In this document: piece after piece, positions 4,766 to 21,027 of the stretch
How the letters are laid out: each line of letters begins with the position of its first letter
Numbering within the stretch: position 1 is the first letter of the stretch
Origin: a virus
Length of the DNA stretch: 21,027 nucleotides
Reading direction: 5' to 3' (one strand)
Virus record (IMG/VR): IMGVR_UViG_3300010885_055241
Coordinates: 1-21,027 of that record
The notes under the pieces: generated by a model
The model's input: the letters and a program-made list of their open reading frames with translations, nothing else
What the model was told of the DNA's origin: nothing
Databases searched by the model: none
Made by a program: the position numbers and the translations under genes

Positions 4766-7423
4766 TTATATTCCTATTATTTTAAATATTCTTTCTTTTG
4801 ATAATTGCCATACGAAATTTGAATGATCAAACACTCCTCCTGAAAAAGTTAGATATTTGTCGTCATCTATTACAGAGGAGATGAAAAAGTATTCATACGG
4901 TAAAAATCTATGTAAAATAGGTGTCGTGCAAAACTTTATAGGTGTAAGTCCATTATTCAAAATTACTGCATAATGGTTGTATTTTTTTTCACTATACAAT
5001 TTTGTATGAATAAAATATAAATATATACATTTATCTTTTAAATAGAGAGGGTTTGATGAGCCACCGACTGCAATATTTGCTGTAAAATACCTTTCATTTG
5101 AAGGAATCACATCTTTTAGTGGCCACTCGATATCTATATATTTTTTAAAGTTTAGTTTTTGAAAATCAATACATTCGTACACTGTATACCTTGGCATCGT
5201 AGAGTAGATAAAAAATAGTTTTTTATCGCTTTCAAAAAATAGCCAATTTTTTTCCCATTTTTTTTCCTTTCCAGTGATAAAAGAGACGTGGTTATATTGA
5301 TCTATTTGAACATCGCCTTTAAAATTATAATCACTATCTAATACTGCTATTTTTGTATTAAAATTCACGTCAATATAAGACACACATAAATAAGACGCGT
5401 TATTATATTTAAACCACCGAAAATCTTCAAATTTAGCTATATCATTGTACTCCTTTATACCTCGTTCATGCTGTGAAACGATATTAAATTTCTTATCATA
5501 ATTAATTTCTAACAAAGTTCGACAGTCTCCTATGCATTCCATGAACTTCGTTAACGATGTATTCTTATCAATTCTTCCAGCACCTATATAGCCGTGTTCG
5601 GTTTCTCTTATAGTTTGGTTGTGTGATACACCTATAGGAGATTTAAAGATTTTAATCGGTAAGTTCCTATTACTACATCTCCATCGCCCTTCAAACATAT
5701 GAACGATATATGCATCGTCAGGACAATCAAACGGATTTGAATAGTTTTTATATGAACACGAATGAGATTGATTTGATCCGAATTTGTTTATATTTAAAAG
5801 TATGGACTTTTCTTTAGCAATATTTTCTGTATCTAATTTAGATAAGTCGCATCCTGCAAAATACTTAATTGCGTGTTTGGTAATTCTTCCAGGGCCAGTG
5901 TTAGTTAAAACATCACCGCTTTTATTGTTGCAGATATCTATGATTAGTGATTTTAAAAAAGCGTGCTTGGGCTTGGCAGCAAACGTCCAGTTGCACACAG
6001 TTATAATTTTTCCGTTAACTTCATGCCCTAGTCTATCCATATCAAAAGACTGTGCCTCCGATTTTAGTAAATTTGCTTCTATACCTAAAATTAAATCATG
6101 GTGTCTGATCCATTTTGTTAATTGAATATTACAATATGTGTCTGCGTCAGTATATACCCCTCCTTGCAAATAAATTAAACAATATCTCCAAAAATCAGAT
6201 TTTTCGCCACCATTATCCAGCTTTTTATAATACGATAAAACATCTACCCCTAATAATGTTTTAAATTCCTCGCTATTATGTTCAAAAAAACTTAAACATT
6301 CATTATCATTAAAATGATTTAATTTCCAATATTTGTTTTTATTTGTAAACGAATCTACCATGTATTGGTTAATGTCTAGATGATCGCGTGTTGTATAGTA
6401 TATATTTCTAGGAATTTCGCTGTAAACTATATTTTGCTGGACTAAGGAATAGTACGAAGGGATTTTTATTTTGTCTAGTTCTTTTTTTTTCCCGGGATAT
6501 TCTGTGAAAAGGACGCTTGTATTATTGTAATCAAATGTTTTTGTTGTCCATTCATGTTTTAAAATTTTTATTACAACCCCATTAATATTTACAATACCGG
6601 TTGGAAATTCACTATTTTCAGGTAATCCACAGACTTTATTTATAGATTTACCAAACAAACTAGGACCTGAAATTTCTAAATAATAACATTCTCTCTTATT
6701 TTCAACATTTTCAACAATAGAATCTATTTGTTTTTTTAAAAATGGGTGTTTAGGTATACTGGCGATAAAACCATTCGCCATAAATGATTTCGACATTGGG
6801 TCGTCTCTTGTAATTAAAAAGGTATCATCTGACTCAATATATTCTTTTAAGCTTTTTAAGCATATCATATCTGAATCAACATAAACTCCGCCGTGTTCAT
6901 AAAGTACGCAACATCTCCACAAATCAGCTTTCAATGCTCCTGGAAGTATTGATAAATACGCATTAAGAACTCTCTCATTAAAAAATTTTTCTATAAAATC
7001 TTGTCTATCTATATCCGTATAATAATAATGTTCATACTCAGGGTTTAAGTCTTTCCATGTGTTAATGCTATTGTACATCCCATCAGGTATATCGTATTCT
7101 TCAAAGGTTTGGTATATTACTCTAGGTATTTTTTGTGGAGTTAGTTCAGTAATTAATTCTACAGAATCAAATTCAATATCAATAAGCAATTCGGTTCCCC
7201 AACCGCCTACTTCCACATCACTTCTCCTTACTTTAATATATGCACCATCAATAGTTACATCAAATGTATCGGGATAGACTTCAAACTTTCTTGGATAAAA
7301 TTTTGGATTTTTGTAATGTTTAAATATAGGTATTAATTTAATGTTGTCGTCTGATGTACCTGCATTAATGATATCTCTCGTATTTTTTTTATGAGTAGAC
7401 GACGTATAGTGGGATACTATCAT
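4766..7423 (-). CDS. Double GT32 (Och1-like, DXD) glycosyltransferase fused to a GH130-like propeller region
   Basis: An 885-residue protein with four parts. Residues 1-95 form an unfamiliar N-terminal beta-rich region. About 97-300 is a glycosyltransferase with sugar-binding DXD motif (Gly_transf_sug/GT32): IPRVIYQTFE, then GALKADLWRCCVLYEHGGVYVDSDM with Asp183/Asp185. About 336-590 is a second copy: IPRNIYYTT, GGEKSDFWRYCLIY and GGVYTDADTY with Asp426/Asp428. Both copies keep the nucleotide-sugar and metal ligands, so both may be active. About 595-885 has repeated aromatic strands and phrases such as KNWLFFESDKKLFFIYS and AVGGSSNPLYL, reminiscent of five-bladed GH130-type propellers; this part is tentative. 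GT32 enzymes transfer a hexose from a nucleotide sugar. Being last in the structural block and 6 nt after the GT60 gene, it probably glycosylates virion proteins or a host/viral glycan. The gene is visibly AT-richer than its neighbours and has A8-A9 runs, suggesting transfer. Confidence 0.88.
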   Translation of the reverse strand: MIVSHYTSSTHKKNTRDIINAGTSDDNIKLIPIFKHYKNPKFYPRKFEVYPDTFDVTIDGAYIKVRRSDVEVGGWGTELLIDIEFDSVELITELTPQKIPRVIYQTFEEYDIPDGMYNSINTWKDLNPEYEHYYYTDIDRQDFIEKFFNERVLNAYLSILPGALKADLWRCCVLYEHGGVYVDSDMICLKSLKEYIESDDTFLITRDDPMSKSFMANGFIASIPKHPFLKKQIDSIVENVENKRECYYLEISGPSLFGKSINKVCGLPENSEFPTGIVNINGVVIKILKHEWTTKTFDYNNTSVLFTEYPGKKKELDKIKIPSYYSLVQQNIVYSEIPRNIYYTTRDHLDINQYMVDSFTNKNKYWKLNHFNDNECLSFFEHNSEEFKTLLGVDVLSYYKKLDNGGEKSDFWRYCLIYLQGGVYTDADTYCNIQLTKWIRHHDLILGIEANLLKSEAQSFDMDRLGHEVNGKIITVCNWTFAAKPKHAFLKSLIIDICNNKSGDVLTNTGPGRITKHAIKYFAGCDLSKLDTENIAKEKSILLNINKFGSNQSHSCSYKNYSNPFDCPDDAYIVHMFEGRWRCSNRNLPIKIFKSPIGVSHNQTIRETEHGYIGAGRIDKNTSLTKFMECIGDCRTLLEINYDKKFNIVSQHERGIKEYNDIAKFEDFRWFKYNNASYLCVSYIDVNFNTKIAVLDSDYNFKGDVQIDQYNHVSFITGKEKKWEKNWLFFESDKKLFFIYSTMPRYTVYECIDFQKLNFKKYIDIEWPLKDVIPSNERYFTANIAVGGSSNPLYLKDKCIYLYFIHTKLYSEKKYNHYAVILNNGLTPIKFCTTPILHRFLPYEYFFISSVIDDDKYLTFSGGVFDHSNFVWQLSKERIFKIIGI

Positions 7424-7429
7424 ATTGAT

Positions 7430-8653
7430 TTATAGGTCTCCTTCGATTTTATTACACCAACCTTTTGATTTGGAGTACGGCCATACCGTCCATTTTTTTG
7501 GAGTTTCAATACAATCAAATTCACGATATATTTTACAATTACTGCTCGAGTCTTTGAGCATTAATAACACTTCTGCAGCGTTTGCATCTTGTCTTACCAG
7601 CTCAACGTCATCTCTCGTTTTAAATGATATACACCAAAAATCATAATCTGTCTCTGGTACCTTACTACGTGCAACTTCTATACAATGTTTAAAACTCTTT
7701 GTAAATGATTGTACCCAGTCATCCGCCACTGGGTTAGGGGGTAGCTTGTGCTCTAATGTATATTGCTGTATAGCTCTAAGTTTAAAATTAACCCCCGCAT
7801 ATTTTTCATAATCTTCTAAACTACGCTCTTTACCAAAATAAAAAATGCCAAAATCGATATCTTGAGGTTCATTATCCATTCCAAATAATTTTCTGTTTCT
7901 TAGATGGGATAAATCGTTTTTACGGTACCAGTCTTTATCGTCGTCCCATTGCTTGGTTCTACCATTACGAGTATACTCGTGCCATGCTATTATTTTATGA
8001 GTATGAAATAAATCGTATCCATGGGTAAAAGATCTAACCGCTAAATTAATCTCTTCGCCATGGAAGTAATAATTAGGATCGTATGGAACTTCTTTATTCC
8101 AGACTCCTAGAGTAAACACGAAGTGAGCAGAAAAGAATCTCGCAGGTATTGGGCTTTCTAAATCTTTAAAATTATCTATACTACTAGGTAGAAAAAATAT
8201 AGCTCCCTCGGGTATAAATTTATCTATATTCATCTTCCAGGGTATGTCTCCCTGTGGTTCCTGCTTGGGGGTATACGAAGGTAGATAGCCAGTTAGTAGA
8301 GGTTTTTTAACTCCTTTACCCTGTAATCCTTTAATCATCTCTATACATGTAATATCCCAATCTTTAACAAACCGATGATGAGAATCTAAACACAGTGTAT
8401 ACTCTTCGTCACTATAATGTTGCTGAATTTGGCTTCTTGCCCAGCATACTCCTTGAGATTGTATATATGGTATATCTTCGATTATAACATTTGGGATGTT
8501 ACGTATTTCATCAACATGTTCTTCAGGGGAATATTGTCTTAATATATAAACCCTAAGATTATCTGGTTTAGCGGCATTTTGGAATAAGCTTTTTATTGTA
8601 GGTACTAACTCAGGGTCTCTATAAGCTGCAATTTGTACAAAGATTCTACTCAT
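7430..8653 (-). CDS. GT60-like polypeptide GlcNAc-transferase family glycosyltransferase
   Basis: 407 residues. Residues 1-270 match the GlcNAc (Skp1 GnT) family: FVQIAAYRDPELVPTI at 5-20, GVCWARSQIQ at 68-77, LDSHHRF with the metal-binding Asp90-Ser-His at 89-95, SAHFVFTLG at 175-183, YYFHGEEINLAVRSFTHGYD at 195-214 and WHEYTRNGR at 224-232. Eukaryotic members (CAZy GT60) put alpha-GlcNAc on hydroxyproline of Skp1 or on threonine of trypanosome mucins. Here the likely acceptor is a virion protein, which is inference. Residues about 305-407 form an extra domain I do not recognise (DYDFWCISFKTRDDVELVRQ), absent from the paralogue at 19646. The start overlaps the previous gene by 4 nt and has a good GGAG Shine-Dalgarno sequence, one of very few in the window. 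The GT32 gene follows after 6 nt. Confidence 0.86.
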   Translation of the reverse strand: MSRIFVQIAAYRDPELVPTIKSLFQNAAKPDNLRVYILRQYSPEEHVDEIRNIPNVIIEDIPYIQSQGVCWARSQIQQHYSDEEYTLCLDSHHRFVKDWDITCIEMIKGLQGKGVKKPLLTGYLPSYTPKQEPQGDIPWKMNIDKFIPEGAIFFLPSSIDNFKDLESPIPARFFSAHFVFTLGVWNKEVPYDPNYYFHGEEINLAVRSFTHGYDLFHTHKIIAWHEYTRNGRTKQWDDDKDWYRKNDLSHLRNRKLFGMDNEPQDIDFGIFYFGKERSLEDYEKYAGVNFKLRAIQQYTLEHKLPPNPVADDWVQSFTKSFKHCIEVARSKVPETDYDFWCISFKTRDDVELVRQDANAAEVLLMLKDSSSNCKIYREFDCIETPKKWTVWPYSKSKGWCNKIEGDL

Positions 8654-9093
8654 ATTACTCCAAATAGCTTACTCAGGATGTAGATGTTATCATGCTGCTG
8701 AGAAATAGTATTATCATTATTATAATCCCCGTACGGATCATCTTCTGATATTTGCCTAGTAGGGAGAGTTACTTGCTTTGCGCCCTTTTCGAGCATCAGG
8801 TATAGCAACTGAGAAGTTATTATATCAGTACTAGCTCTAGCAACGAAATCATTAATTTGCTCTAAACTAACATTCTTAGCTAATGCACCAAAAGGGTTTG
8901 CATATAATCCAAACACAAAATGGGGAAGATACCTATTTGCAACTGTTGCGCAGTCTCTGATTACATTAACTGCAGCAGGGTTGACAATAGTAATACCATT
9001 ACTAGGATCAGCCATAGCTTTTTTGCTAGGTCCATATAGCTTAGCCTCCTTCGCAGGGCTGTATTGAATTATAGCTTCTTCGAGTGAGGGCAT
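8650..9093 (-). CDS. Conserved-looking phage protein, function unknown
   Basis: 147 residues, soluble, no signal or membrane segment. The N-terminal half has a PAAVNVIRDCATVANRYLPHFVFG stretch and the middle a helix-rich LEQINDFVARASTDIITSQLLYLMLEKG. The last 35 residues are polar (ISEDDPYGDYNNDNTISQQH) and end in IYILSKLFGVI. I do not recognise a family. It overlaps the dCMP deaminase gene upstream by 25 nt and the GT60 gene downstream by 4 nt, so it is surely translated from the same message. Its place between metabolic and glycosylation genes gives no firm functional clue. Confidence 0.75.
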   Translation of the reverse strand: MPSLEEAIIQYSPAKEAKLYGPSKKAMADPSNGITIVNPAAVNVIRDCATVANRYLPHFVFGLYANPFGALAKNVSLEQINDFVARASTDIITSQLLYLMLEKGAKQVTLPTRQISEDDPYGDYNNDNTISQQHDNIYILSKLFGVI

Positions 9094-9506
9094 AATTTTA
9101 CTAAATTAATATTAAATTTATTCGCCATTGCAAATGTTAATTCTGAATCATAATTAGGCAGAATTAATGCGTAATATAAAGTACTTATTTTCTTCTGGGC
9201 TATTAACTTAATACACCGCTCACACGGTAGATGAGTTACAGCTAATACATCGAGTTCACCCGGCTTAACAAAGTTTAACACGTTCTCTTCGGCATGCAGG
9301 ACATATGGTCTACGAGCGTCTCTATCAGACCAGTCTATCACTACTCCTGAGGGAGCACCGTTGTATCCTAATACAAGGCTTTTATCGTGTTTAATGCCTA
9401 CAGCACCGACCTGTACCCAGGGGTCTTCACTACGATATTCAGCAATATTAAATGCTAAATTCATAGCTGCTTCAGGCCAACTAAGTCTTGGTCTACCGTT
9501 TGTCAT
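9069..9506 (-). CDS. Deoxycytidylate (dCMP) deaminase-like zinc enzyme
   Basis: 145 residues. It carries the zinc-binding cytidine/deoxycytidylate deaminase signature: His71-Ala-Glu73 (VLHAEENVLN), the zinc ligand plus proton-shuttling glutamate, and Pro94-Cys95-x-x-Cys98 (LPCERCIKLI). The N-terminal WPEAAMNLAFNIAEYRSEDPWVQVGAV and GYNGAPSG segments match dCMP deaminases of phages and eukaryotes more than nucleoside deaminases. It converts dCMP to dUMP, feeding dTMP synthesis, and complements the RNR in this window. The usual allosteric insert with extra zinc ligands seen in T4-type enzymes is not obvious. A tRNA- or free-nucleoside-deaminase role is less likely. It overlaps the nuclease gene by 14 nt and the next gene by 25 nt, with no Shine-Dalgarno sequence. 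Confidence 0.9.
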   Translation of the reverse strand: MTNGRPRLSWPEAAMNLAFNIAEYRSEDPWVQVGAVGIKHDKSLVLGYNGAPSGVVIDWSDRDARRPYVLHAEENVLNFVKPGELDVLAVTHLPCERCIKLIAQKKISTLYYALILPNYDSELTFAMANKFNINLVKLCPHSKKL

Positions 9507-10414: not shown

Positions 10415-11473
10415 CTATGTTACAGTAATTAGTGGAGTATTCTTAACAGTAATATTCAGTGCAATTGATCCACCAACACCCCATTTGTACCCACCTCCAG
10501 GGCTACCGGGACCAGGTCCCATATAAAAATTAATCGGGGCACCTAATTGAATAGGGTACTTTGATAAATCTACCTGTATACTAACGGAACCATAATTAAC
10601 CCCGCTTCTAGGTTCATGAGCATAACCAACCAGGTAACATAGGGGAGATGCAACAGTTTCATAGGTCGATAGATTCAGCGTTAGTTTTTTTGTTGCAACC
10701 TGGTAAGATATAGCGGTGATACTATATGTCTTTACACCTGTTAATTGCTTAAAATATAGATTTAATCTCGCTACAATAGTTTCGACGTTTGTAGCAAAGT
10801 AGAGCGTATCTTTTTTCGTTAAATTTGTGATTGCGTTAGGATCAACTACATATTTATTGCTTATATCTTGTACTATCTCAGGTGCAATAACTACATCTAA
10901 CCCCGCTTCTATCTGCTGAATAAACCCCTGAAACGTGGGCTGACTCATCGTTATATTCTTACTAGATATTTTTTTATCTTGATGAGTGTATGTGCTGTTA
11001 TTAATTTGCATCCACAGCCCTACGTCGTGATCCATTAACCCGCTCCAGGACGCAGTAACTATAGCAGATTTTAATGCAAATGTATCAGTTGATAAAGTAG
11101 ATGATCCTTTAGTTTGTAAGTTAAGCATTCTACTTATCTCACCTAAAGGCTTTACTTTGTAAGTGTTCTGTACAATATTACTATTGCTATAATAGTATAC
11201 GTTTATATTCTCGGCGCCTGAAGTAAGTCCTGCGTTTACTATTAAGCTATAGTTATAATTATAACTTACAGCTCCTTTGAAATTACTAAACTTAATTGGA
11301 TTAGAGCCTGACGGGATATCAAAGTCTTGCCCACGAAACTCACTCAGCCTATAGGGCTTAGTTGCAGCTCCGACAGATACCCCCTTAATACCGGAAAGAG
11401 AGGAAATCGCTGTTAAATTTAGCGCTCCTGACGCAGGTAATATAGTGGTAGTAGATACACTTGGGTAGCTCAT
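10415..11473 (-). CDS. Tail appendage/fibre-type structural protein
   Basis: 352 residues rich in Ser, Thr, Asn, Gly and Tyr, with few charged residues and beta-strand-like spacing, typical of virion appendages. The N-terminus has two short related phrases, KPYRLSEFRGQDF (39-51) and NPIKFSNFKGAVS (58-70), a pattern seen in phage tail-fibre and baseplate-associated proteins. The C-terminal part contains a Gly/Pro stretch (MGPGPGSPGGGYKWG). No enzymatic motif is visible. It starts inside the stop of the S74 fibre gene (4-nt ATGA overlap), implying translational coupling and probably a shared structure. The leader (GACAAAAACAA) has no Shine-Dalgarno sequence. Confidence 0.7.
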   Translation of the reverse strand: MSYPSVSTTTILPASGALNLTAISSLSGIKGVSVGAATKPYRLSEFRGQDFDIPSGSNPIKFSNFKGAVSYNYNYSLIVNAGLTSGAENINVYYYSNSNIVQNTYKVKPLGEISRMLNLQTKGSSTLSTDTFALKSAIVTASWSGLMDHDVGLWMQINNSTYTHQDKKISSKNITMSQPTFQGFIQQIEAGLDVVIAPEIVQDISNKYVVDPNAITNLTKKDTLYFATNVETIVARLNLYFKQLTGVKTYSITAISYQVATKKLTLNLSTYETVASPLCYLVGYAHEPRSGVNYGSVSIQVDLSKYPIQLGAPINFYMGPGPGSPGGGYKWGVGGSIALNITVKNTPLITVT

Positions 11474-12945
11474 TTGTTTTTGTCGAGCTCTTCAACTTTA
11501 TTGTTGAGTACTCTGATTGCTTCTACAAGTAATGGAATAACTTTCTCGTAATGTACACCAAGATAACCGTCATATCTAGTACCTACAGCTTCTGGTATTT
11601 GTAGCTGCACATCTTGCGCAATTAAACCTATATCGTTACCTGAATATGAAGCGCTGTTATTCCAAGTAAAGTTTACCCCTCTAAGTGCTAAGGTTTTATT
11701 TAAAGCATTCTCGATAGGCACGATATTACTCTTTAGTCTTTCATCAGAAGTATAGAATCCAATAATATCACCTGTTGCGCTTAAATCACCTTGTAGTGTA
11801 ACATTACCAGTTATAGCTAGCACGTTAGTACCGGTAGAGCCCACTATACGAACAGGACCGTCTTTAAAATATACTCCACCGCTTATAGCCGTACTTTCAG
11901 TACCGTACTTCGTATTCGTATGTACACCTAGATAAGGTCCTCCATCAGGAATACGCGCATTGAGAATACTTCTACTTGTTGCGCCTGACGTTCCTCCTCT
12001 TATATCAAGTAGGACCTGACCAGTAACAGCACTATCGTCTTTAACTAACAAAGAAGTAAGAGGGGAAGTTACTGTATCAGTAGTATTAATAACAAATGAC
12101 GTTACAGCGGAGACGTTCGTGGTGTTAGAGATTATAACAGTGCCGAAATTGGCTGATCCGGTGACCATTATGCTCGAGTTTATTTTTACTAATCCTCCAG
12201 TAAATTCAAACGTAGGTGAAGCAGATAGTTGAGCGTATGTACCAGATGCGAGACCATCTTTGATAACAAAGGACTTAGTACCATTTGTACCTAAAAGATT
12301 TGAATTAAAGCTTAGGCTATTAGCCGCTGAAATGGTTCCTGAGCCACCGAGAGTAATTGTTGAGCTGCCTGACCCGGCAGATAATTGAATTCTATTACTA
12401 GAGCCTAGTACGGATATAGGTCCTTGGGTATTTAAAATTGAATCGCTATATCTATTAGCAGGTACAGAGCCGATATAAAAACCGCTTAAACCTGCAGGAT
12501 AAGAATATACAGTAGCTAAATTAGAATCAAATTCTAATTTACCTGTACCAGAGTAATTAATATTAAATCCGGTTCCTGCAAACGTACTCGCAACTCTTAA
12601 CCCACCACCCGCATATTCAATAGTTGCATAAGGAGAGGAAGCTATTGCCGGGGCTACTGACGTCCATGCACCGCTTACAGACCATACATTGAGCGCACCT
12701 GCAGTAGTATCATATATAGTATCCCCTAAAAATCCGACAGTATTACTAATACTAGATGAGAAACCTAAAAATTTATTACCTGCAACAGTCTCGGTTCCCA
12801 GCTGCCCATTACCTATAAAAAGTCTCTGAGTATCTGTAGTGTATCCTAGTTCACCTTGGGCGAGAATAGATTGCTGTCTATCAGAATCAGGCCCTCTTCT
12901 GACGATGATTCTTACTACCGTATTATTATTGATTTCTATAGCCAT
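11470..12945 (-). CDS. Tail fibre/spike with C-terminal S74 intramolecular chaperone domain
   Basis: 491 residues. The N-terminal 55 (IIVRRGPDSDRQQSILAQGELG, then TDTQRLFIGNG) match the particle-anchoring domain of the major tropism determinant type. The middle (60-395) is a long Ser/Thr/Gly-rich beta region with short repeats, as in trimeric fibres. The last 92 residues are a peptidase S74 intramolecular chaperone: TSDERLKSNI with the self-cleavage Ser400 and Lys405 (Ser-x4-Lys dyad), then GVNFTWN, DIGLIAQDVQLQIPEAV and a helical end VIPLLVEAIRVLNNKVEELDK. This domain assists trimer folding and then cuts itself off, so the mature fibre should end near residue 399. A good Shine-Dalgarno AGGAAG lies 7 nt before the ATG. 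It is the likely receptor-binding fibre. Confidence 0.93.
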   Translation of the reverse strand: MAIEINNNTVVRIIVRRGPDSDRQQSILAQGELGYTTDTQRLFIGNGQLGTETVAGNKFLGFSSSISNTVGFLGDTIYDTTAGALNVWSVSGAWTSVAPAIASSPYATIEYAGGGLRVASTFAGTGFNINYSGTGKLEFDSNLATVYSYPAGLSGFYIGSVPANRYSDSILNTQGPISVLGSSNRIQLSAGSGSSTITLGGSGTISAANSLSFNSNLLGTNGTKSFVIKDGLASGTYAQLSASPTFEFTGGLVKINSSIMVTGSANFGTVIISNTTNVSAVTSFVINTTDTVTSPLTSLLVKDDSAVTGQVLLDIRGGTSGATSRSILNARIPDGGPYLGVHTNTKYGTESTAISGGVYFKDGPVRIVGSTGTNVLAITGNVTLQGDLSATGDIIGFYTSDERLKSNIVPIENALNKTLALRGVNFTWNNSASYSGNDIGLIAQDVQLQIPEAVGTRYDGYLGVHYEKVIPLLVEAIRVLNNKVEELDKNK

Positions 12946-12948
12946 ATA

Positions 12949-13272
12949 TTATCTTCCTATGTAAACGTAGTTCGACGAAAGACCGCTATTAGTATTTACT
13001 CCCGTTAGTGTATACAAATGACTATCGGCTAGATTGTACACTATATCATTTGTCTCAACGTATTGAACGGTATTATCGCTAAACCCTTGTATGATGTATA
13101 ATTTGCTCGCTACAGGCTTACCACCAGGTGATGCACCATCGCCGACAAATAAGCGGACGTTCTGACTGTCGGTAGTTACTCCTAACTCACCTTGAGCTAA
13201 GACTGTTTGTTTACGATCAGTATTAGATCCTCGTCTAATTAAAAATTTAACAATATTTGTCGGTGTTGCCAT
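12949..13272 (-). CDS. Short virion protein with the same N-terminal domain as the S74 fibre
   Basis: 107 residues. Residues 8-45 (VKFLIRRGSNTDRKQTVLAQ, GELGVTTDSQNVRLFVGDG) are clearly related to the start of the 491-residue fibre that follows 3 nt downstream. Residues 55-107 (IIQGFSDNTVQYVETNDIVYNLADSHLYTL) correspond to the next fibre segment (FLGFSSSISNTVGFLGDTIYDTTAGALNVW). It stops where the fibre continues into its beta shaft. It may be a separate adaptor or decoration subunit sharing a docking site, or the remnant of a duplicated fibre gene. Nothing enzymatic is visible. The leader has no Shine-Dalgarno sequence. Confidence 0.8.
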   Translation of the reverse strand: MATPTNIVKFLIRRGSNTDRKQTVLAQGELGVTTDSQNVRLFVGDGASPGGKPVASKLYIIQGFSDNTVQYVETNDIVYNLADSHLYTLTGVNTNSGLSSNYVYIGR

Positions 13273-13293: not shown

Positions 13294-14919
13294 TTAGTCA
13301 ATAAATACAGCTTGATTTTCAGAGGTAGAAGAATCTTGTATAATTGTATTGCTTTTGCCTATTATGTTTAGCTGCAGGTTGTACATTTTTTCTAAACCTC
13401 TATTAATTACTGTATTAAGTAGTGCCTCATTATTACCAATAAAGTGGTCAAGCGTAATATTATAATCCGTCATATCTAGATCGTCGAGTAAGAAGTAGAA
13501 GAAACCGTGAAGGAGTAAATTATTATGATCATCGTAAGTACCGTAAAATCTACCGATAATTTTGTCTTTAAGTCTTACGTGGTTTAAAGCTAGTTTTTGT
13601 ATAGCTTTGTTAATTACCCACGTCTGAGTATATTCATCAGGCTTTACCTTTATGTCATCAAGCGTATAAACTTCAAAGTCAGGTAAAGTTAGTACATCAG
13701 CAAAATTAGTCGATTCTGCTACTTTAATAATAGTGCGTACGCTATCAGATGCACGTAAACCTAAAATATACACATCATCAATTCCTGCATTTAAGCTTGC
13801 TACACTAGATGCGTAGCTATATGTTTCACTCGCAGGCAAGCCGAATCTATACAAAGAATATACCCCGATGGGATTCTGTGGCTTACTTGCATAAAACTTC
13901 CAAATATTGTAATTTGTAACTATAAAATATACGTTAGTAAAATTCTTACTTGTAAAGATATTTTTTATATTTTCATCGGTTTTGAGAAAATTAGCAAAAT
14001 TTACAATTTGATATGTCTTGAGTTCACCATCAAAAGATACAATGTTATTCTGCTCTGTACCTACGTATAGTCTCCCAGTAGAATTACTACCAGCTATCGC
14101 AATAGGTGCATTATTATAAAATACTTCAATATGTTGATTTATATTTAAGAAGTTTAAATCTAAGTCATAGCTTTTAATAGCGTAATTACCCTTATCTAGT
14201 ACATATACAGTATCATTGAATATCGTTATACCACCAATACCATTAAACTGATATTTTTTCTCAGCATTACCTGTACCACCGATAAGCTTAGTCAGTATTA
14301 ATCCATTAGGATAAATTTGATCATTAAAAAGAGCAGTTAAGTCATATTTATATACACTATTATAGAAGGAATCTGCTATGTAGAGTGAGTTATTATAAAA
14401 TGAAGCTCCGACAATGCTTTGAAAAGTTAAGTGCTGATCTATATTAACTAAGTTAGTTGACAGTAATACGGATATAGAAGAATTATCCTTTGCTGCTTTA
14501 CTTAGAATAACAGTATTAGGAGTACAGGTAACTATTAAATCACTATTTAATAGTTCACTATATTGCACTTCGGTGATAATCGCGTTATCGAAAGCTGATA
14601 AACCAATAGAGCTAAACGTAGTGAAATTTGATACCCCATAACCACCAGACAACCATCCAAAGGTGCTCGTCGATGTTATTGCTCCTGCAATAACAGGCAT
14701 ACCATCAGGTACTACATTACTACCCATCTCTGTTAGACCGAAGATGTAAAGAAAATTATCATATAACTTCTCGAACGACAAATTAAGCGAGCGAAACGTG
14801 CTTAGCTCGTTGGGCTGTATTTTAATTTGATCAAAATTATACGGTAATTCGAATGACTCGTTAAAATACCGATCATGTCGAAAGTTTGATGTTGCGAATA
14901 TGTTAGATATATAGTCCAT
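13294..14919 (-). CDS. Virion structural protein with NHL/propeller-like repeats
   Basis: 541 residues. Residues 1-65 are aromatic and polar (RYFNESFELPYNFDQIKI). About 165-300 contains at least three blade-like repeats of the form gIxxfNdxxYVxDxxxxxIxxYD, for example SFYNNSLYIADSFYNSVYKYDL at 173-194, GGITIFNDTVYVLDKGNYAIKSYDL at 229-253 and the weaker GRLYVGTEQNNIVSFDG at 282-298. These resemble NHL-type beta-propellers, often sugar- or protein-binding. The C-terminal 110 residues (WVINKAIQKLALNHVRLKDKIIG onward) are more helical. The start overlaps the stop of the 1112-residue gene by one base (TAATG), so the two are translationally coupled and probably parts of one tail structure. Exact place in the virion unknown. 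Confidence 0.78.
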   Translation of the reverse strand: MDYISNIFATSNFRHDRYFNESFELPYNFDQIKIQPNELSTFRSLNLSFEKLYDNFLYIFGLTEMGSNVVPDGMPVIAGAITSTSTFGWLSGGYGVSNFTTFSSIGLSAFDNAIITEVQYSELLNSDLIVTCTPNTVILSKAAKDNSSISVLLSTNLVNIDQHLTFQSIVGASFYNNSLYIADSFYNSVYKYDLTALFNDQIYPNGLILTKLIGGTGNAEKKYQFNGIGGITIFNDTVYVLDKGNYAIKSYDLDLNFLNINQHIEVFYNNAPIAIAGSNSTGRLYVGTEQNNIVSFDGELKTYQIVNFANFLKTDENIKNIFTSKNFTNVYFIVTNYNIWKFYASKPQNPIGVYSLYRFGLPASETYSYASSVASLNAGIDDVYILGLRASDSVRTIIKVAESTNFADVLTLPDFEVYTLDDIKVKPDEYTQTWVINKAIQKLALNHVRLKDKIIGRFYGTYDDHNNLLLHGFFYFLLDDLDMTDYNITLDHFIGNNEALLNTVINRGLEKMYNLQLNIIGKSNTIIQDSSTSENQAVFID

Positions 14920-17900
14920 TAGTCAATCCAATCTATTGTATTTACTGCCACTGTACTCGGTAGTACGTTATTTGCACTACTTAATATCTTAGATACAAGT
15001 AGCTTCTTTAACTTATCACTCTGTATACCTGAATTTACCATTGATATATTTAGATTTAAAGATTTAAGCGACGGTACATCTAATTTGAAAAATCTTTCTA
15101 TTTCGTCATTTAAATTGCGCTTACCTGCAGGTAGGTTGATAAGCATTGTAGTACCTGTATACTTTTTGTTCGCAATAGCGGAAATATCACTATCGAGTAA
15201 CGGCTTTGTATATATTCTTAAATCTGATATCTTTGTGTTTAAGACGTAGAAATATAACCCTTTAAGATATTGAGATAGCAGAGCATTATTAAAGAATGGC
15301 GATGCGCCAATAGTAAACGGTACTGTAAGACCAGCACTACGCGCATATTCACCAGGTTCGAAATTACTTGTACCTACATTTAACCCGTCTATAAATAAAG
15401 CTAACTGACCTTGTACGTTATCAAATCTTACAGCTATATTATGAGTACCGCTATCGACTGCTGATAAAGACTGTGTGATAGCTACTGTAGTACTATTTCT
15501 ACCTAGTAAGTTAGGTAGAGAAGCTCTTACAGTTAGCGAATTGCTTGTTAAGTATGGGTAAATTTCTCGTGCGATAAAATTTCCATTTGATACATTAAAA
15601 GTATGAATAGGAGAATTAAGTGAAGGTATATTTACGTTAGATATAAATTTACCATCGCTATCATATTTAATAAGATTTGTGCCTATACCACCCGATGTAG
15701 CTGCAAACTGAGTAACAATAGTATTATACCGGTACCCCTCAGGAGTGAAGTCTCCAGCAAAATCAATATCAACATTTCTAAAATCAGGATTATATAAAGC
15801 AGCGGTGAGAACTAGCTGTCTTGTGCTCGTGTATTTAGATAATTTATTATCTTGAACTATACTGAAATTACCGTCTATGTCAATATTAAACGAATCTATA
15901 GGTGTAAATGCACTAATAAATGGTAAATCAGTTCCGCTACCGCCTGAAGTGATATCCCATTTTCTTATTTCGGTATCGCTCTTTAAATAGTATATTGAAC
16001 CCTCATAAAGTCTCGTAATATACGAGCTCGTACAATAGAAGACGTCGTTATATATGGTACAGCTATTAGCTGCGGATAAGGGTAGTGAATTTAAACTAAT
16101 TATATTACTTGAGGCAGGGGTATAAATAGATTCTGTCGTAAAGTCAAAACAGTATAACTGGTTCGATGATACGGAGTTGACAAGAATAGCAGCTGAATTA
16201 TTATTATAGAAAGTGCCTGTTACATTATCAAAAGAAGGTATGTTTGTTTGCGATTTAGAAATAATAACGTGATTAGCAGCTAGATTATACAATCTACCAT
16301 TAGAGAGGAGAGTATAATAACCTTTTAACTCTTCTTTTCTAAAAATACCTACGACATCCGCTTCGAATGTAACCTTATCAACAATCTTAAAATCGCTATT
16401 AAGAATAACAATAGTATTCCTTTGCGGTATCATATAATACGGTGTGATATTGGTCTGATTAAAGATACCGAATCCTGAATCTGTATAGTTACCGACTAAT
16501 TCGTAAGCAAAGTCAGATCTCCAGTCGCTTACATTTATATCGAACGTTAGTGTAAAGCAGTTACTGTTATTATAGATTTCATCTAATGTAATAGTCTGAG
16601 AATACTCTTGTCCGTTAAACTGATATTCAAGTAACTGATTTGTATTAGTGAGTAACTGAGTATTATTAACAAAATAATTGACTAAATTATTTTGTATTAG
16701 GCTACTGCTTAATAGGTTGACGTAATTAGATAAATCTGTACCACCAATATGGTGGTAAGCGTAGTATACCCCTTTTTCAATATATAAATTACTGATAGTA
16801 TCAAATACGATGCTACCTGTTGAAATAATACTCTGTAATGTATCGAACTCTGTAGTATAAGTTTGCGCAATTGAATTTGTTGCGCTTAGTGCATCAAAGA
16901 AAGATATCTGCTGCGGATTATAATATCTATCTACCCAGACTGGAGTGGTTTCACTGGTACCGTTTCCTGAAAGCCATGCACATAAGAATGTGCCGCTATT
17001 TTCATCGGAGCTGTTTCCTGAATATGAATAATTACTATAATCCGCTCTCTTCTTAAAAATCTTATCAGATTTAAGTGGGTGATCACTCGCAGCAGCTCCT
17101 TTGCTTGTAAAGTTTGTATCGTTTACATTAATTTTACTATAAGGAAAAGTATTTGCCGGTACATGAAAATAGGTGATTGTATTAGGTTCTAATTCTATCT
17201 TCGACGTAAAGCCAGTGTACGATAGAATAATGCTATCAGAACCTTTGACCTGATTTGTACCAGAAAATATTTTCTTATAATCTCTATATGTAAAATCATC
17301 GGCACCTATATAAGTGTCGTTATCAGCATTGTTATTTTGAGGCGACAGCTCATTTTTTAAAGTTAAAATATTAACCTTAACATCGCTACCTGTAATATTG
17401 GAGTATTCAGTATTAACTAAATAGTTATTTTGAATATTATTTCTTGAATTTATTTCCGATGTATCAAGGGTATTAATGCTCGTAGTCTTGCTATACCGTA
17501 CATTAAACTCTTCGAGGTCATATGAGTCATAAGGAGTATCGGCGTGTCTCAGTTTAATAATAGAGTCAAGAGGGAATGTATTGGTAGAGCCAAGCGGTGG
17601 TTGCTTCAAACCTAGTCTACCTAGGTTTGAATATGTCATGTAATACGGGAAATCTAAAATAGTCTTATAGAAAACTATATAATCATTAACTTCATCATAA
17701 ATGTAGTAGAATGTTTGTGGGTGATAGGATTGACCGTTAATATATGCTAAATCAAAGCGAGGAGCAAAGCTCAAATTAAAGGAGTAGTCGAGAGTAAGTA
17801 AGTAATCAGTATTTTGATCATTGTGATGAATCTCACAAAACATATCATCAAGAAATACGATTTCAAAAAAGTTCTCGTTAACAGGTAACGTAGGGTAGAT

Positions 17901-18257
17901 ATGCTCTACAAGGCATACTCTTGGATTCTCTCCTATTAAATTAGTATTAAACAGCCAATATAATGAATCGCTGTTTATCTCTTTAATAGAGTCAAAAGTG
18001 AGAAATGACGTAAACGCTCGCTGAACTTTAGGTAAACCTCTAACAGACAATACGTCTCCAAGTTTTTTTCTGTTTGTTAGATAGAGATTAGAGAAATTAT
18101 TAATTTTGACGTCATTTGCACCGGAAAGCATATTCGGCAGCGTCATATGCATCCCCTGCTCTGTATAAAACGGACGACTATTTACTGTTACTGTAGGGTC
18201 AGAGTAGACAGGGTTCACCTGTTTAAAGGTGCTTGTATTCAATATGCTGTTATACAT
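14919..18257 (-). CDS. Large virion structural protein with LamG-like C-terminal domain
   Basis: 1112 residues, the largest product in the window. It is rich in Asn, Ser, Tyr and Thr, with no enzymatic motifs, signal or membrane segments. Residues about 400-600 hold WLSGNGTSETTPVWVDRYYNPQQ and further aromatic strands. About 640-880 has alternating strands like those in the 541-residue neighbour (NQLYCFDFTTESIYTP). About 890-1030 follows the concanavalin/LamG pattern (HNIAVRFDNVQGQLALFIDG, TIGASPFF, ISDLRIYTKPLLDSDISAI). The last 80 residues are more helical (LNDEIERFF, SDKLKKLLVSKIL). LamG folds often bind carbohydrates, consistent with a host-surface-contacting appendage. Start context is GATAAATA then 6 nt, with no Shine-Dalgarno sequence. 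A 65-nt gap separates it from the preceding gene. Confidence 0.8.
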   Translation of the reverse strand: MYNSILNTSTFKQVNPVYSDPTVTVNSRPFYTEQGMHMTLPNMLSGANDVKINNFSNLYLTNRKKLGDVLSVRGLPKVQRAFTSFLTFDSIKEINSDSLYWLFNTNLIGENPRVCLVEHIYPTLPVNENFFEIVFLDDMFCEIHHNDQNTDYLLTLDYSFNLSFAPRFDLAYINGQSYHPQTFYYIYDEVNDYIVFYKTILDFPYYMTYSNLGRLGLKQPPLGSTNTFPLDSIIKLRHADTPYDSYDLEEFNVRYSKTTSINTLDTSEINSRNNIQNNYLVNTEYSNITGSDVKVNILTLKNELSPQNNNADNDTYIGADDFTYRDYKKIFSGTNQVKGSDSIILSYTGFTSKIELEPNTITYFHVPANTFPYSKINVNDTNFTSKGAAASDHPLKSDKIFKKRADYSNYSYSGNSSDENSGTFLCAWLSGNGTSETTPVWVDRYYNPQQISFFDALSATNSIAQTYTTEFDTLQSIISTGSIVFDTISNLYIEKGVYYAYHHIGGTDLSNYVNLLSSSLIQNNLVNYFVNNTQLLTNTNQLLEYQFNGQEYSQTITLDEIYNNSNCFTLTFDINVSDWRSDFAYELVGNYTDSGFGIFNQTNITPYYMIPQRNTIVILNSDFKIVDKVTFEADVVGIFRKEELKGYYTLLSNGRLYNLAANHVIISKSQTNIPSFDNVTGTFYNNNSAAILVNSVSSNQLYCFDFTTESIYTPASSNIISLNSLPLSAANSCTIYNDVFYCTSSYITRLYEGSIYYLKSDTEIRKWDITSGGSGTDLPFISAFTPIDSFNIDIDGNFSIVQDNKLSKYTSTRQLVLTAALYNPDFRNVDIDFAGDFTPEGYRYNTIVTQFAATSGGIGTNLIKYDSDGKFISNVNIPSLNSPIHTFNVSNGNFIAREIYPYLTSNSLTVRASLPNLLGRNSTTVAITQSLSAVDSGTHNIAVRFDNVQGQLALFIDGLNVGTSNFEPGEYARSAGLTVPFTIGASPFFNNALLSQYLKGLYFYVLNTKISDLRIYTKPLLDSDISAIANKKYTGTTMLINLPAGKRNLNDEIERFFKLDVPSLKSLNLNISMVNSGIQSDKLKKLLVSKILSSANNVLPSTVAVNTIDWID

Positions 18258-18589: not shown

Positions 18590-19576
18590 TTATGTAGGTA
18601 CACTGTACGGGGAACTATTTAGACCAGAACCTATAAGCGTAAAGGCTCCTGATGAGTTTGTACTACCGGATTTAATATATACTCGCGGTAGCGCACTAAA
18701 AGGACCAAATCCATTAGCTCCAAGGCTCTTAGGTGCTGTCCCAGTTCTAAAGAGACTTGTATCGGTTGTATATTGATTTATGATAAAGAATAGCTCGCAA
18801 TATGCGAATCTATCTGGTGCAGTGGCACCGGTAACACCAGAAGTATCATCACCTACCTGCGCAATTAAACTACTATCAGTAAACACGATATTACCAGTAC
18901 CATCGGGGGTGGAGGTTGATGAAGATACAGCTACACCGTTTTTATAGACGCTTATAGTGTTTGTACTTACATCAACAGAAACAAGTAAATGATACCACGC
19001 TCCAGTAGATATCGCGTTAATAACGCTTGTCCATATAAATGTTCCGTCACTTCTTCCCACCTGTACTGCCAATCCATTAGTTCCCGTTCTATAAATACTA
19101 AACGGCTCAGGAATAGAAGGGTTATCAGAACCGCGGTTAACAGCGAATAATGTCGAGTCTGTACTATTATTAGCATGGTAAAACCATCCCGAGAATGTAC
19201 ATTTTGTACTATCGGTTGCAGCATTAGCAAAATCAGGTGTATTACTCTGTAAGTAACTACTATTTAAAATACTATCAAATAAAGAGGCTGTAACAGAGAA
19301 TGCAGGCGTCGGAGTAGGAGTAGGTGTTGGTGTCGGAGTTGGTGTCGGAGTTGGTGTCGGAGTTGGTGTCGGAGTTGGTGTCGGAGTTGGTGTCGGAGTT
19401 GGTACTACGACTGACGCAGCTCTATGACCAGGTGCACTATTAAAGGGTATATTGTTACCTACATTTTTAGATCTCCTACCCGTATCACTAAAAGGCGACC
19501 CATACTGAACCGGTAATTTCGTAGTCGGTGCTTTCGTGAGCCTTCTAGCATCTGTAAATGTAGGTAATATCGGCAT
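18590..19576 (-). CDS. Virion adhesin with (Pro-Thr) stalk and LamG/concanavalin-like head
   Basis: 328 residues in three parts. Residues 1-58 are a basic, Pro-rich N-terminus (DARRLTKAPTTKLPVQYGSPF) that probably docks to the virion. Residues 59-91 are an uninterrupted Pro-Thr repeat, 17 Pro and 16 Thr, expected to form a stiff extended rod; in eukaryotes such tracts are typical O-glycan acceptors. About 95-270 is a LamG_3-type domain (CTFSGWFYHANNSTDSTLFAV, GAWYHLLVSVDVSTNTISVYKNG, CELFFIINQYT), usually carbohydrate- or surface-binding. The end (PRVYIKSGSTNSSGAFTLIGSG) is a small beta tail. It heads the long minus-strand block, with an exact TATAAATA box 26 nt upstream. A GT60-type gene starts 69 nt away on the other strand. 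No signal peptide, so a virion rather than secreted protein is assumed. Confidence 0.85.
   Translation of the reverse strand: MPILPTFTDARRLTKAPTTKLPVQYGSPFSDTGRRSKNVGNNIPFNSAPGHRAASVVVPTPTPTPTPTPTPTPTPTPTPTPTPTPTPTPTPAFSVTASLFDSILNSSYLQSNTPDFANAATDSTKCTFSGWFYHANNSTDSTLFAVNRGSDNPSIPEPFSIYRTGTNGLAVQVGRSDGTFIWTSVINAISTGAWYHLLVSVDVSTNTISVYKNGVAVSSSTSTPDGTGNIVFTDSSLIAQVGDDTSGVTGATAPDRFAYCELFFIINQYTTDTSLFRTGTAPKSLGANGFGPFSALPRVYIKSGSTNSSGAFTLIGSGLNSSPYSVPT
19304..19402 (-). repeat. Tandem repeat encoding (Pro-Thr)16-Pro
   Basis: A 99-nt in-frame tract of alternating Pro and Thr codons. Within it, 19331-19402 is six perfect copies of a 12-mer (plus strand TGTCGGAGTTGG). Identity at synonymous positions points to recent expansion by slippage or recombination rather than selection on the protein alone. 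Confidence 0.95.
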
Positions 19577-19602
19577 ATTCTATATAGCTGTAAGCTTATA
19601 GT

Positions 19603-19610
19603 TATTTATA
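19603..19610 (-). promoter_or_regulatory. TATAAATA late-promoter-like box for the structural operon
   Basis: An exact TATAAATA on the minus strand, 26 nt before the first ATG of the thirteen-gene minus-strand block. Spacing and orientation suit a T4-type late promoter with a short leader. It is the best-placed box in the window. Confidence 0.6.
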
Positions 19611-19631
19611 GTATATTTTATGTAATTCTCT

Positions 19632-19639
19632 TTTAAATA
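19632..19639 (+). promoter_or_regulatory. TTTAAATA box 6 nt before the plus-strand GT60 gene
   Basis: TTTAAATA differs from the NATAAATA form at one position and ends 6 nt before the ATG at 19646, the same spacing as at 4120 and 18257. There is no Shine-Dalgarno sequence. Confidence 0.3.
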
Positions 19640-19645
19640 TCGTAA

Positions 19646-20563
19646 ATGGACAAAATTCTTGTACAAATATGCTCTTATAGAGATATTCACCTTATATCGA
19701 CTGTAAAAGATTTATTTAATAAAGCTAGTGAACCATCGAGGTTACGTGTTGTCATAGCATGTCAGCGCGATACTAATGAAGATATAGATGAATTGAAAGC
19801 AATGCCTAATGTAACGGTTATAGACATTTATTATAAAGACACGAAAGGCGTGGGTTGGGCTCGGAATCTGTTACAGCGACAATATAACGACGAAAAATAC
19901 GTCTTACAATTAGACTCTCATCATAAATTTGTTCAAGATTGGGATGCTATGTGCATTAAGATGATAGAGGATCTACAAAATAAAGGTTATAGCAAGCCTA
20001 TGCTCACTACGTACTTACCGGATTATAATGAAACTACCGGGGATCTATCTACAACAGCTCCGACAAAAATGACGTTCTGTAATTTTGAAAAAAATGGATT
20101 AATCGCATTTGCATATACAGAGGTTAAAGATTATAATAAGTTAACTCTTCCGGAACGTGCAAGATTTTATTCAGGTCACTTTGTATTTACTTTAGGTAAA
20201 TGGGATTTAGAAGTTCTCTACGACCCTGATTGTTGGAGTATTTTTGCAGAAGAGCTCAATATGGGTGTTCGCTCATATACTCATGGGTATGATTTGTTTC
20301 ATCCTCATAAGCTTATAGCTTATCATTGTTACAGCAGAAGCTCACGCTGGGCGCATCACTATGATGTAGATAACTTAGATGAACGGTTAGATCAATCCGC
20401 CTCACGGTTGCGGCAGCTATTGTATGTTGATAATGTAGATTTTGGTATATACGGTGTAGGAAAATTTAGGTCTATTAAAGATTACGAAAATTATACAGGT
20501 ATAGATTTTAAAAATAAATCTACTATACAGAGAATAAATTATACCCCTCTACCGCATATATAG
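19646..20563 (+). CDS. Second GT60-like polypeptide GlcNAc-transferase family glycosyltransferase
   Basis: 305 residues, a paralogue of the 407-residue enzyme at 7430-8653; the first 100 residues align without gaps and about half are identical. Motifs: VQICSYRD at 6-13, GVGWARNLLQ at 68-77, LDSHHKF at 89-95 with Asp90, SGHFVFTLG at 176-184, GVRSYTHGYDLFHPHK at 207-222. The FHGEEI motif of the paralogue is changed to IFAEELN (199-205) and WHEYTRNGR becomes YHCYSRSSR, so acceptor or donor preference may differ. It lacks the paralogue's C-terminal extra domain. It is the only plus-strand gene in the right 16 kb and lies exactly between two minus-strand genes encoding (Pro-Thr)n proteins. The GT60 family is known for modifying Thr or hydroxyproline, so these stalks are attractive acceptors (inference). 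Only 5 nt separate its stop from the convergent gene. Confidence 0.86.
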   Translation: MDKILVQICSYRDIHLISTVKDLFNKASEPSRLRVVIACQRDTNEDIDELKAMPNVTVIDIYYKDTKGVGWARNLLQRQYNDEKYVLQLDSHHKFVQDWDAMCIKMIEDLQNKGYSKPMLTTYLPDYNETTGDLSTTAPTKMTFCNFEKNGLIAFAYTEVKDYNKLTLPERARFYSGHFVFTLGKWDLEVLYDPDCWSIFAEELNMGVRSYTHGYDLFHPHKLIAYHCYSRSSRWAHHYDVDNLDERLDQSASRLRQLLYVDNVDFGIYGVGKFRSIKDYENYTGIDFKNKSTIQRINYTPLPHI

Positions 20564-20568
20564 TATTC

Positions 20569-21027
20569 CTAGTAAGTTATTATTTTTTTAGCAGCAGCGT
20601 ATCCGCCAGGACACGATCTAGTATCGTCTTGTACATCAAAGACATCCGGGAAGCAGTTATTTATCATTGTTTGAATATCACCATGTGACCAACCGTAGTT
20701 AAACTCAGTTGCATATAATGTTATAAACGCATCGGGTGTAGTGCTTATACCAAGTAAACTGCTATATATAGCAGCTTCATTATTAGACAAAGTATAATTA
20801 CAAGGAGGTACACCGTATGGTAGAGATACAGGAGTCGTATCAAAACACGCTACATCACAACAAACTGTCGGAGTAGGAGTAGGTGTAGGCGTTGGTGTCG
20901 GTGTCGGAGTAGGTGTTGGTGTCGGCGTTGGTGTCGGTGTCGGAGTAGGTGTTGGTGTCGGCGTCGGAGTAGGCGTTGGAGTAGGCGTTGGAGTAGGCGT
21001 TGGAGTAGGCGTTGGAGTAGGCGTTGG
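20569..21027 (-). CDS. (Pro-Thr)n protein with Cys-containing C-terminal domain, 5' end outside window
   Basis: The minus-strand frame is open from the right edge to the stop at 20569. A TTG at 20788-20790 that could pass for a start is internal. The visible product is a (Pro-Thr)26-Pro tract running off the window (20869-21027), then a 99-residue C-terminal domain with six Cys (VCCDVACFD, PPCNYT, NNCFPD, RSCPGG). Its middle reads AAIYSSLLGISTTPDAFITLYATEFNYGWSHGDIQTMI and it ends AAAKKIITY. The domain is not recognised; paired cysteines could form disulfides outside the cell. The layout (stalk then compact head) matches the LamG adhesin at 18590-19576, and both are probably virion surface proteins. 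Upstream sequence is needed for the N-terminal anchor. Confidence 0.82.
   Translation of the reverse strand, partial: PTPTPTPTPTPTPTPTPTPTPTPTPTPTPTPTPTPTPTPTPTPTPTPTPTPTPTVCCDVACFDTTPVSLPYGVPPCNYTLSNNEAAIYSSLLGISTTPDAFITLYATEFNYGWSHGDIQTMINNCFPDVFDVQDDTRSCPGGYAAAKKIITY
20869..21027 (-). repeat. Tandem repeat encoding (Pro-Thr)26-Pro, continuing past the window
   Basis: 53 codons alternate Pro and Thr without a break. There is nested structure: two exact 36-bp units at 20890-20961, then five exact copies of a 12-mer (plus strand GGAGTAGGCGTT) from 20966 to 21025. The first 20 nt of the tract region (20867-20886) are identical to 19308-19327 in the other Pro-Thr gene. Confidence 0.95.

Follow-up and report, generated by a model that had tools for sequence, protein, structure and literature searches.

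The window analysed here is the whole of IMG/VR virus record IMGVR_UViG_3300010885_055241, a stretch of 21,027 bases. A first-pass annotation, made from the letters alone, had called it phage DNA, and rightly so: the record carries genes of a tailed phage, namely a sigma factor, a ribonucleotide reductase (RNR), a cell-wall hydrolase/endolysin, a dCMP deaminase, an exonuclease and tail proteins bearing S74 and Mtd_N domains. The Mtd_N domain is common to two adjacent tail proteins (11470-12945 and 12949-13272), one of which has a C-terminal S74 chaperone; a further tail protein, encoded at 14919-18257, had no match among GenBank phages. The features on which the analysis centres are the following.

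18590-19576, minus strand: gene A, a stalk protein of 328 residues with a short N-terminal segment, a Pro-Thr (PT) stalk and a Laminin_G_3 head
19304-19402, minus strand: perfect PT stalk of gene A, (PT)16P, 33 residues (59-91), in which only third codon positions vary
18890-19228, minus strand: Laminin_G_3 / ConA-like lectin head of gene A (residues 117-229; PF13385, E 1.1e-10, 42.3 bits against a cut-off of 27.6)
19646-20563, plus strand: GT60-type polypeptide glycosyltransferase of 305 residues, catalytic domain only (PF11397 (GlcNAc), phrog_24687, GT27-like fold)
19913-19921, plus strand: DxH motif of this enzyme, D90-S91-H92, replacing the DxD of a GT-A active site
20569-21027, minus strand: gene C, a second stalk protein, open at the contig edge, with its 5' end beyond the contig
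20866-21027, minus strand: PT stalk of gene C, (PT)27, at least 54 residues (1-54 of the visible part)
7430-8653, minus strand: second GT60 homologue, 407 residues (PF11397, 8e-65, 220 bits against a cut-off of 21)
4766-7423, minus strand: double GT32-type glycosyltransferase, with two PF04488 stretches

The first-pass annotation had described two minus-strand genes encoding perfect (PT)n stalks. Both are there, and the tract of gene A has the 33 residues claimed; that of gene C is likewise a perfect PT repeat, with at least 54 codons rather than the 53 given. Every difference between adjacent 12-bp units falls at a third codon position, with 7 in the stalk of gene A and 26 in that of gene C. 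Such a pattern indicates that conservation acts on the PT protein sequence rather than merely on a DNA repeat, and both stalks are dense Pro/Thr tandem domains with protein-level constraint, as in mucin-like glycoproteins. A plus-strand reading of the repeat, as (GV)n, was rejected because no plus-strand open reading frame of at least 60 residues covers it, and also because the PT frame encodes the Laminin_G_3 domain. That genes A and C encode adhesins is suggested by a lectin-like head and by the tail genes nearby. A single relative of the gene A head was found, and it has no PT stalk, which suggests that the heads are modular, or swappable; the C-terminal head of gene C (~98 residues) has no recognised domain, and no relatives of it were found.

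Between the two stalk genes, and on the opposite strand as first described, lies the gene for the 305-residue enzyme, whose match to PF11397 (4.7e-56, 191 bits) is far above the cut-off of 21. Residues D90, H92, W99, D100, E203 and H227 are invariant in an alignment of 19 homologues. A DxH motif instead of DxD is the mark of families GT27 and GT60, both of which are said to O-glycosylate Ser/Thr of polypeptides (PMC7185993). The AlphaFold2 model (pLDDT 92.6, pTM 0.93) found only polypeptide GalNAc-transferases as its top Foldseek matches, and in a VIA fold comparison 29 GT27 polypeptide GalNAc-transferase entries scored Z 20.2-23.7 over ~260-275 residues, with the next fold at 17.9; the fold search alone was informative in this respect, single-sequence and profile comparisons with PDB sequences having given no match. 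A profile match over the cut-off, the DxH motif and a GT-A fold related to, and closest to, that of GT27 all agree with the earlier assignment to the polypeptide O-glycosyltransferases. All of its nearest relatives act on polypeptides, and a polypeptide is the predicted acceptor here too, although a common fold does not prove function. The enzyme closely resembles mucin-glycosylating enzymes of animals and parasites.

GT27 enzymes carry a ricin-type lectin domain, and Skp1 Gnt1 of Dictyostelium is a GT60 polypeptide alpha-GlcNAc-transferase. The phage protein has the closest solved fold to GT27 polypeptide GalNAc-transferases over its residues 1-296 (Z up to 23.7) and shares their DxH, but is only ~14% identical to them and lacks a second domain. 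With the GT60 enzymes Skp1 Gnt1 and TcOGNT1 it shares the PF11397 profile and the DxH motif, and the latter, from T. cruzi, makes GlcNAc-alpha-Thr in mucin-like molecules (PMC9472816). It differs from both in that its gene adjoins its candidate acceptors, in having 305 residues without a fused stalk or anchor, and in that its activity is predicted. T. cruzi, an organism with GT60 enzymes, also offers a parallel to the stalks: its surface protein gp72 has a Thr/Pro (PTPT...) domain and is heavily glycosylated (PMC3630849). The glycans of gp72 differ in being phosphosaccharides, and they are made in a eukaryotic secretory pathway.

The second GT60 homologue and the double GT32 enzyme that had been noticed elsewhere in the window are also confirmed by their domain matches. 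The 407- and 305-residue homologues are 47% identical; the longer has an extra C-terminal beta domain (~90 residues, about 315-407), which is present in most viral GT60 homologues and absent from the 305-residue enzyme. The double GT32 gene starts 6 nt downstream of the second GT60 gene, and its product is a possible glycan-extending enzyme.

Whether GT60 homologues and PT-repeat genes co-occur across viral genomes had been set beforehand as a point on which the proposal could fail, and the two proved to be associated in both directions. PF11397 was present in 10/50 viral records with an in-frame (PT)8, versus none of 50 with (PA)8 and none of 50 with collagen repeats (Fisher p 9e-6); in reverse, (PT)4 DNA occurred in 25/50 GT60 records versus 1/50 collagen records (p 9e-9). 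Ordinary GT2 genes were found in 14/50 PT records and 7/50 collagen records (p 0.07), and this roughly twofold difference implies a link with fair specificity for GT60. A set of 80 viral GT60 loci was also fetched with a query blind to PT. When a PT-rich gene was defined by a 24-residue window with at least 70% Pro+Thr, these loci had 80 such genes per Mb, versus 2.8 where (PA)8 had been the selection criterion and 0.0 where collagen repeats had. GT60 was lacking from 40 of the 50 PT-stalk records, many of which are fragments, and PT stalks do not need GT60.

The association has a preferred geometry. With a 60% cut, the gene directly upstream of the viral GT60 gene was Pro/Thr-rich in 34/77 cases, versus 31/467 for far genes (p 1e-15, a value inflated by near-identical loci). 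A PT-rich gene stood one to three places upstream of GT60 in 41 loci, versus 19.7 expected when labels were permuted within loci. The 34 directly upstream genes were on the strand of GT60 in 32 cases, at a median gap of 53 nt. The window differs from most of its relatives in this respect, its enzyme being encoded on the strand opposite both stalks. A 229-kb viral contig (L092) has the window's layout too, with two PT-stalk genes flanking a GT60 gene, all three of them on one strand there (1-2709, 5426-6628 and 7467-9098). An N-terminal motif like P-x-x-K-V-F-G-L-I-G-E recurs in PT proteins upstream of GT60 (L009, L010, L012, L013, L027, L031, L032, L047 and L049); all nine genes found by this motif were PT-rich, which suggests a common virion-anchoring module. 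A phage-encoded transferase is thus genetically linked to genes of putative virion proteins.

Such linkage might reflect chance or lineage hitchhiking: a single clade of large phages could carry GT60 and also abound in PT linkers without the two being functionally connected. In keeping with this, the label 'PT neighbour' is clustered on the GT60 tree, and PT-rich genes are common in these genomes even far from GT60, as the 31/467 count shows; record-level counts may be inflated by shared phage lineage. Among GT60 clusters at 70% identity, a PT-rich gene lies within positions -3 to +1 in 10/22, and directly upstream in only 4/22. However, the label changes 11 times on the tree, with at least nine changes forced by well-supported branches, and the excess found by permutation arises within loci. 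Once the stalk is masked, moreover, the PT proteins at positions -3 to +1 fall into 16 unrelated families (including the window's two), 13 of which have at least 100 non-stalk residues, and the stalk is their sole common element. A weaker signal recurs in unrelated bacteria, where PT-rich genes make up 7/426 genes within 3 kb of GT60 in chromosomes versus 2/600 beyond (p 0.03), examples being a Jiulongibacter strain, a Sphingomonas MAG and an Azospirillum strain. This stricter count supersedes an initial one (8/345 versus 1/530), in which the gene caller had missed GT60 in 18 loci. The two isolates with GT60 that were examined, XacN1 and RAS14, both have PT linkers as well. A lineage control based on the window's RNR gene gave three relatives only, too few for use. 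The family, tree, cluster, permutation and bacterial checks have reduced lineage effects, not abolished them, and we regard hitchhiking as a very improbable account of the pairing.

Alternatively, the GT60 enzyme and its neighbours could act on the host, modifying surface glycans or proteins for superinfection exclusion or serotype change and being merely co-located with PT stalks in a hypervariable tail-fibre region. Glycosyltransferases near tail genes in the host-recognition clusters of pelagimyophages have been read in this way, as modifiers of host O-antigen (PMC7029224); among the families flanking GT60 are some that are usually LPS-linked (GT25), and the many PT records without GT60 would fit as well. 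On the other hand, none of the 50 collagen-fibre records has GT60, while GT2 is not much rarer in them; the linkage is to the PT stalk itself, across the 16 unrelated families and mostly directly upstream on the same strand; and fold and DxH motif alike place the enzyme with polypeptide transferases and not with enzymes that use lipid or glycan acceptors. Host modification therefore seems to us unlikely, though the least so of the alternatives considered.

Another alternative is a broad action of the enzyme on Ser/Thr of virion proteins, including those of baseplate, capsid and tail tube, with PT stalks as just one substrate or a minor one. In its favour, no PT-rich gene lies within reach in 19 of the 80 GT60 loci, and there is precedent: mycobacteriophage glycosyltransferases modify capsid and tail-tube proteins at their C-termini (Freeman et al. 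2023, cited in both PMC12619734 and PMC10877033). That system resembles the one predicted here in that phage-encoded transferases glycosylate the virion's own proteins, and differs in its acceptors, the candidates here being PT stalks; tblastn with the 305-residue enzyme gave no mycobacteriophage match. The only GenBank phages with a homologue by tblastn were Xanthomonas phage XacN1 and Stenotrophomonas phages RAS14 and CM1 (35-37% identity). Proteomics of XacN1 reportedly revealed two or more virion glycoproteins (PMC5852040). The genome of XacN1 has a carbamoyltransferase gene directly after the GT60 gene and a single (PT)5 DNA match, in ORF325, a 3313-residue protein encoded beside a baseplate wedge gene, and RAS14 has PT linkers in a 739-residue protein; unlike the stalks of the window, these linkers are shorter and lie roughly 10-40 kb from the GT60 gene. 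Against a general virion substrate stand the strong positional preference of GT60 for PT-rich genes and the fact that PT is the sole recurring common element, and we consider such breadth of action improbable, a little more so than host modification.

Downstream of viral GT60 genes, hmmscan found GT25, HtrL_YibB, GT34, DUF273, GT2, GT10, a PLOD-type glycosyltransferase, GT17 and GT32, as well as methyltransferases, a sulfotransferase and a carbamoyltransferase. This gene set looks like one for initiation followed by extension and decoration, although which of these enzymes would act on one glycan is our conjecture.

Gene layout, PT conservation, enzyme family and fold, recurrent linkage and downstream glycan enzymes, all directly observed, point to phage-encoded mucin-type O-glycosylation of adhesin stalks, with the enzyme adding the first sugar to PT threonines in the cytoplasm; we hold this to be probably correct, with catalysis, sugar, acceptor, virion location and function as its predicted parts. 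The isolate XacN1, with reported virion glycoproteins and PT linkers as well as a GT60 homologue, fits this reading too. The 305-residue protein would be a soluble, cytoplasmic, mucin-type initiating GT60 glycosyltransferase that moves a single sugar from a UDP-sugar onto threonines of the phage's own PT stalks before virion assembly. The candidate sugars are GlcNAc, as the family would suggest, and GalNAc, as the modelled fold would; by family precedent alpha-GlcNAc is the most likely. In many related phages the neighbouring GT25, GT34, GT10, GT2 and methyl-, sulfo- and carbamoyl-transferases would probably extend or decorate this first sugar. The product would be a stiff, extended, glycan-coated spacer bearing a variable, swappable adhesin head; protease resistance, mimicry of host glycans and immune masking would be speculative further roles.

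A broader proposition, on which we lean slightly to doubt, is that environmental phages carry whole mucin-type O-glycosylation cassettes, in which a PT-stalk adhesin is joined by a GT60/GT27-like initiator and by a varying set of enzymes for extension or decoration. Working in the bacterial cytoplasm and needing no lipid carriers, such cassettes would coat virion stalks with glycan brushes, as a prokaryotic counterpart of eukaryotic mucin-type O-glycosylation.

Phage virion glycosylation is known from few cases, with capsid and tail-tube acceptors. Phage-encoded glycosylation of virion proteins is thus already established, in mycobacteriophages by the accounts cited above, and the new element would be a GT60/GT27-type PT-stalk system; the literature searched contained no such system tied to Pro-Thr adhesin stalks and no phage PT-repeat glycosylation. 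An initiator of the mucin type dedicated to PT stalks would, if confirmed, explain why phages keep long and otherwise floppy PT tracts. Glycoengineering would gain an O-glycosylation system that works in bacterial cytoplasm with one soluble enzyme, and such an initiator would bear on the origin of the eukaryotic GT60/GT27 enzymes.

Two further arrangements were seen among the loci. In L105 (PT at 9417-9463) and L131 (PT at 1889-1935) there is no GT60, and an ordinary GT2 lies ~0.3-1.4 kb from the stalk; GT2 might substitute for GT60 at PT-stalk loci such as these. In two bacterial loci, L508 (6382-9990, a Sphingomonas MAG) and L522 (8460-10001, a Vicinamibacterales MAG), a PT-rich gene abuts GT60 (0-11 bp), and bacteria may have the GT60-PT pairing as a system of their own.
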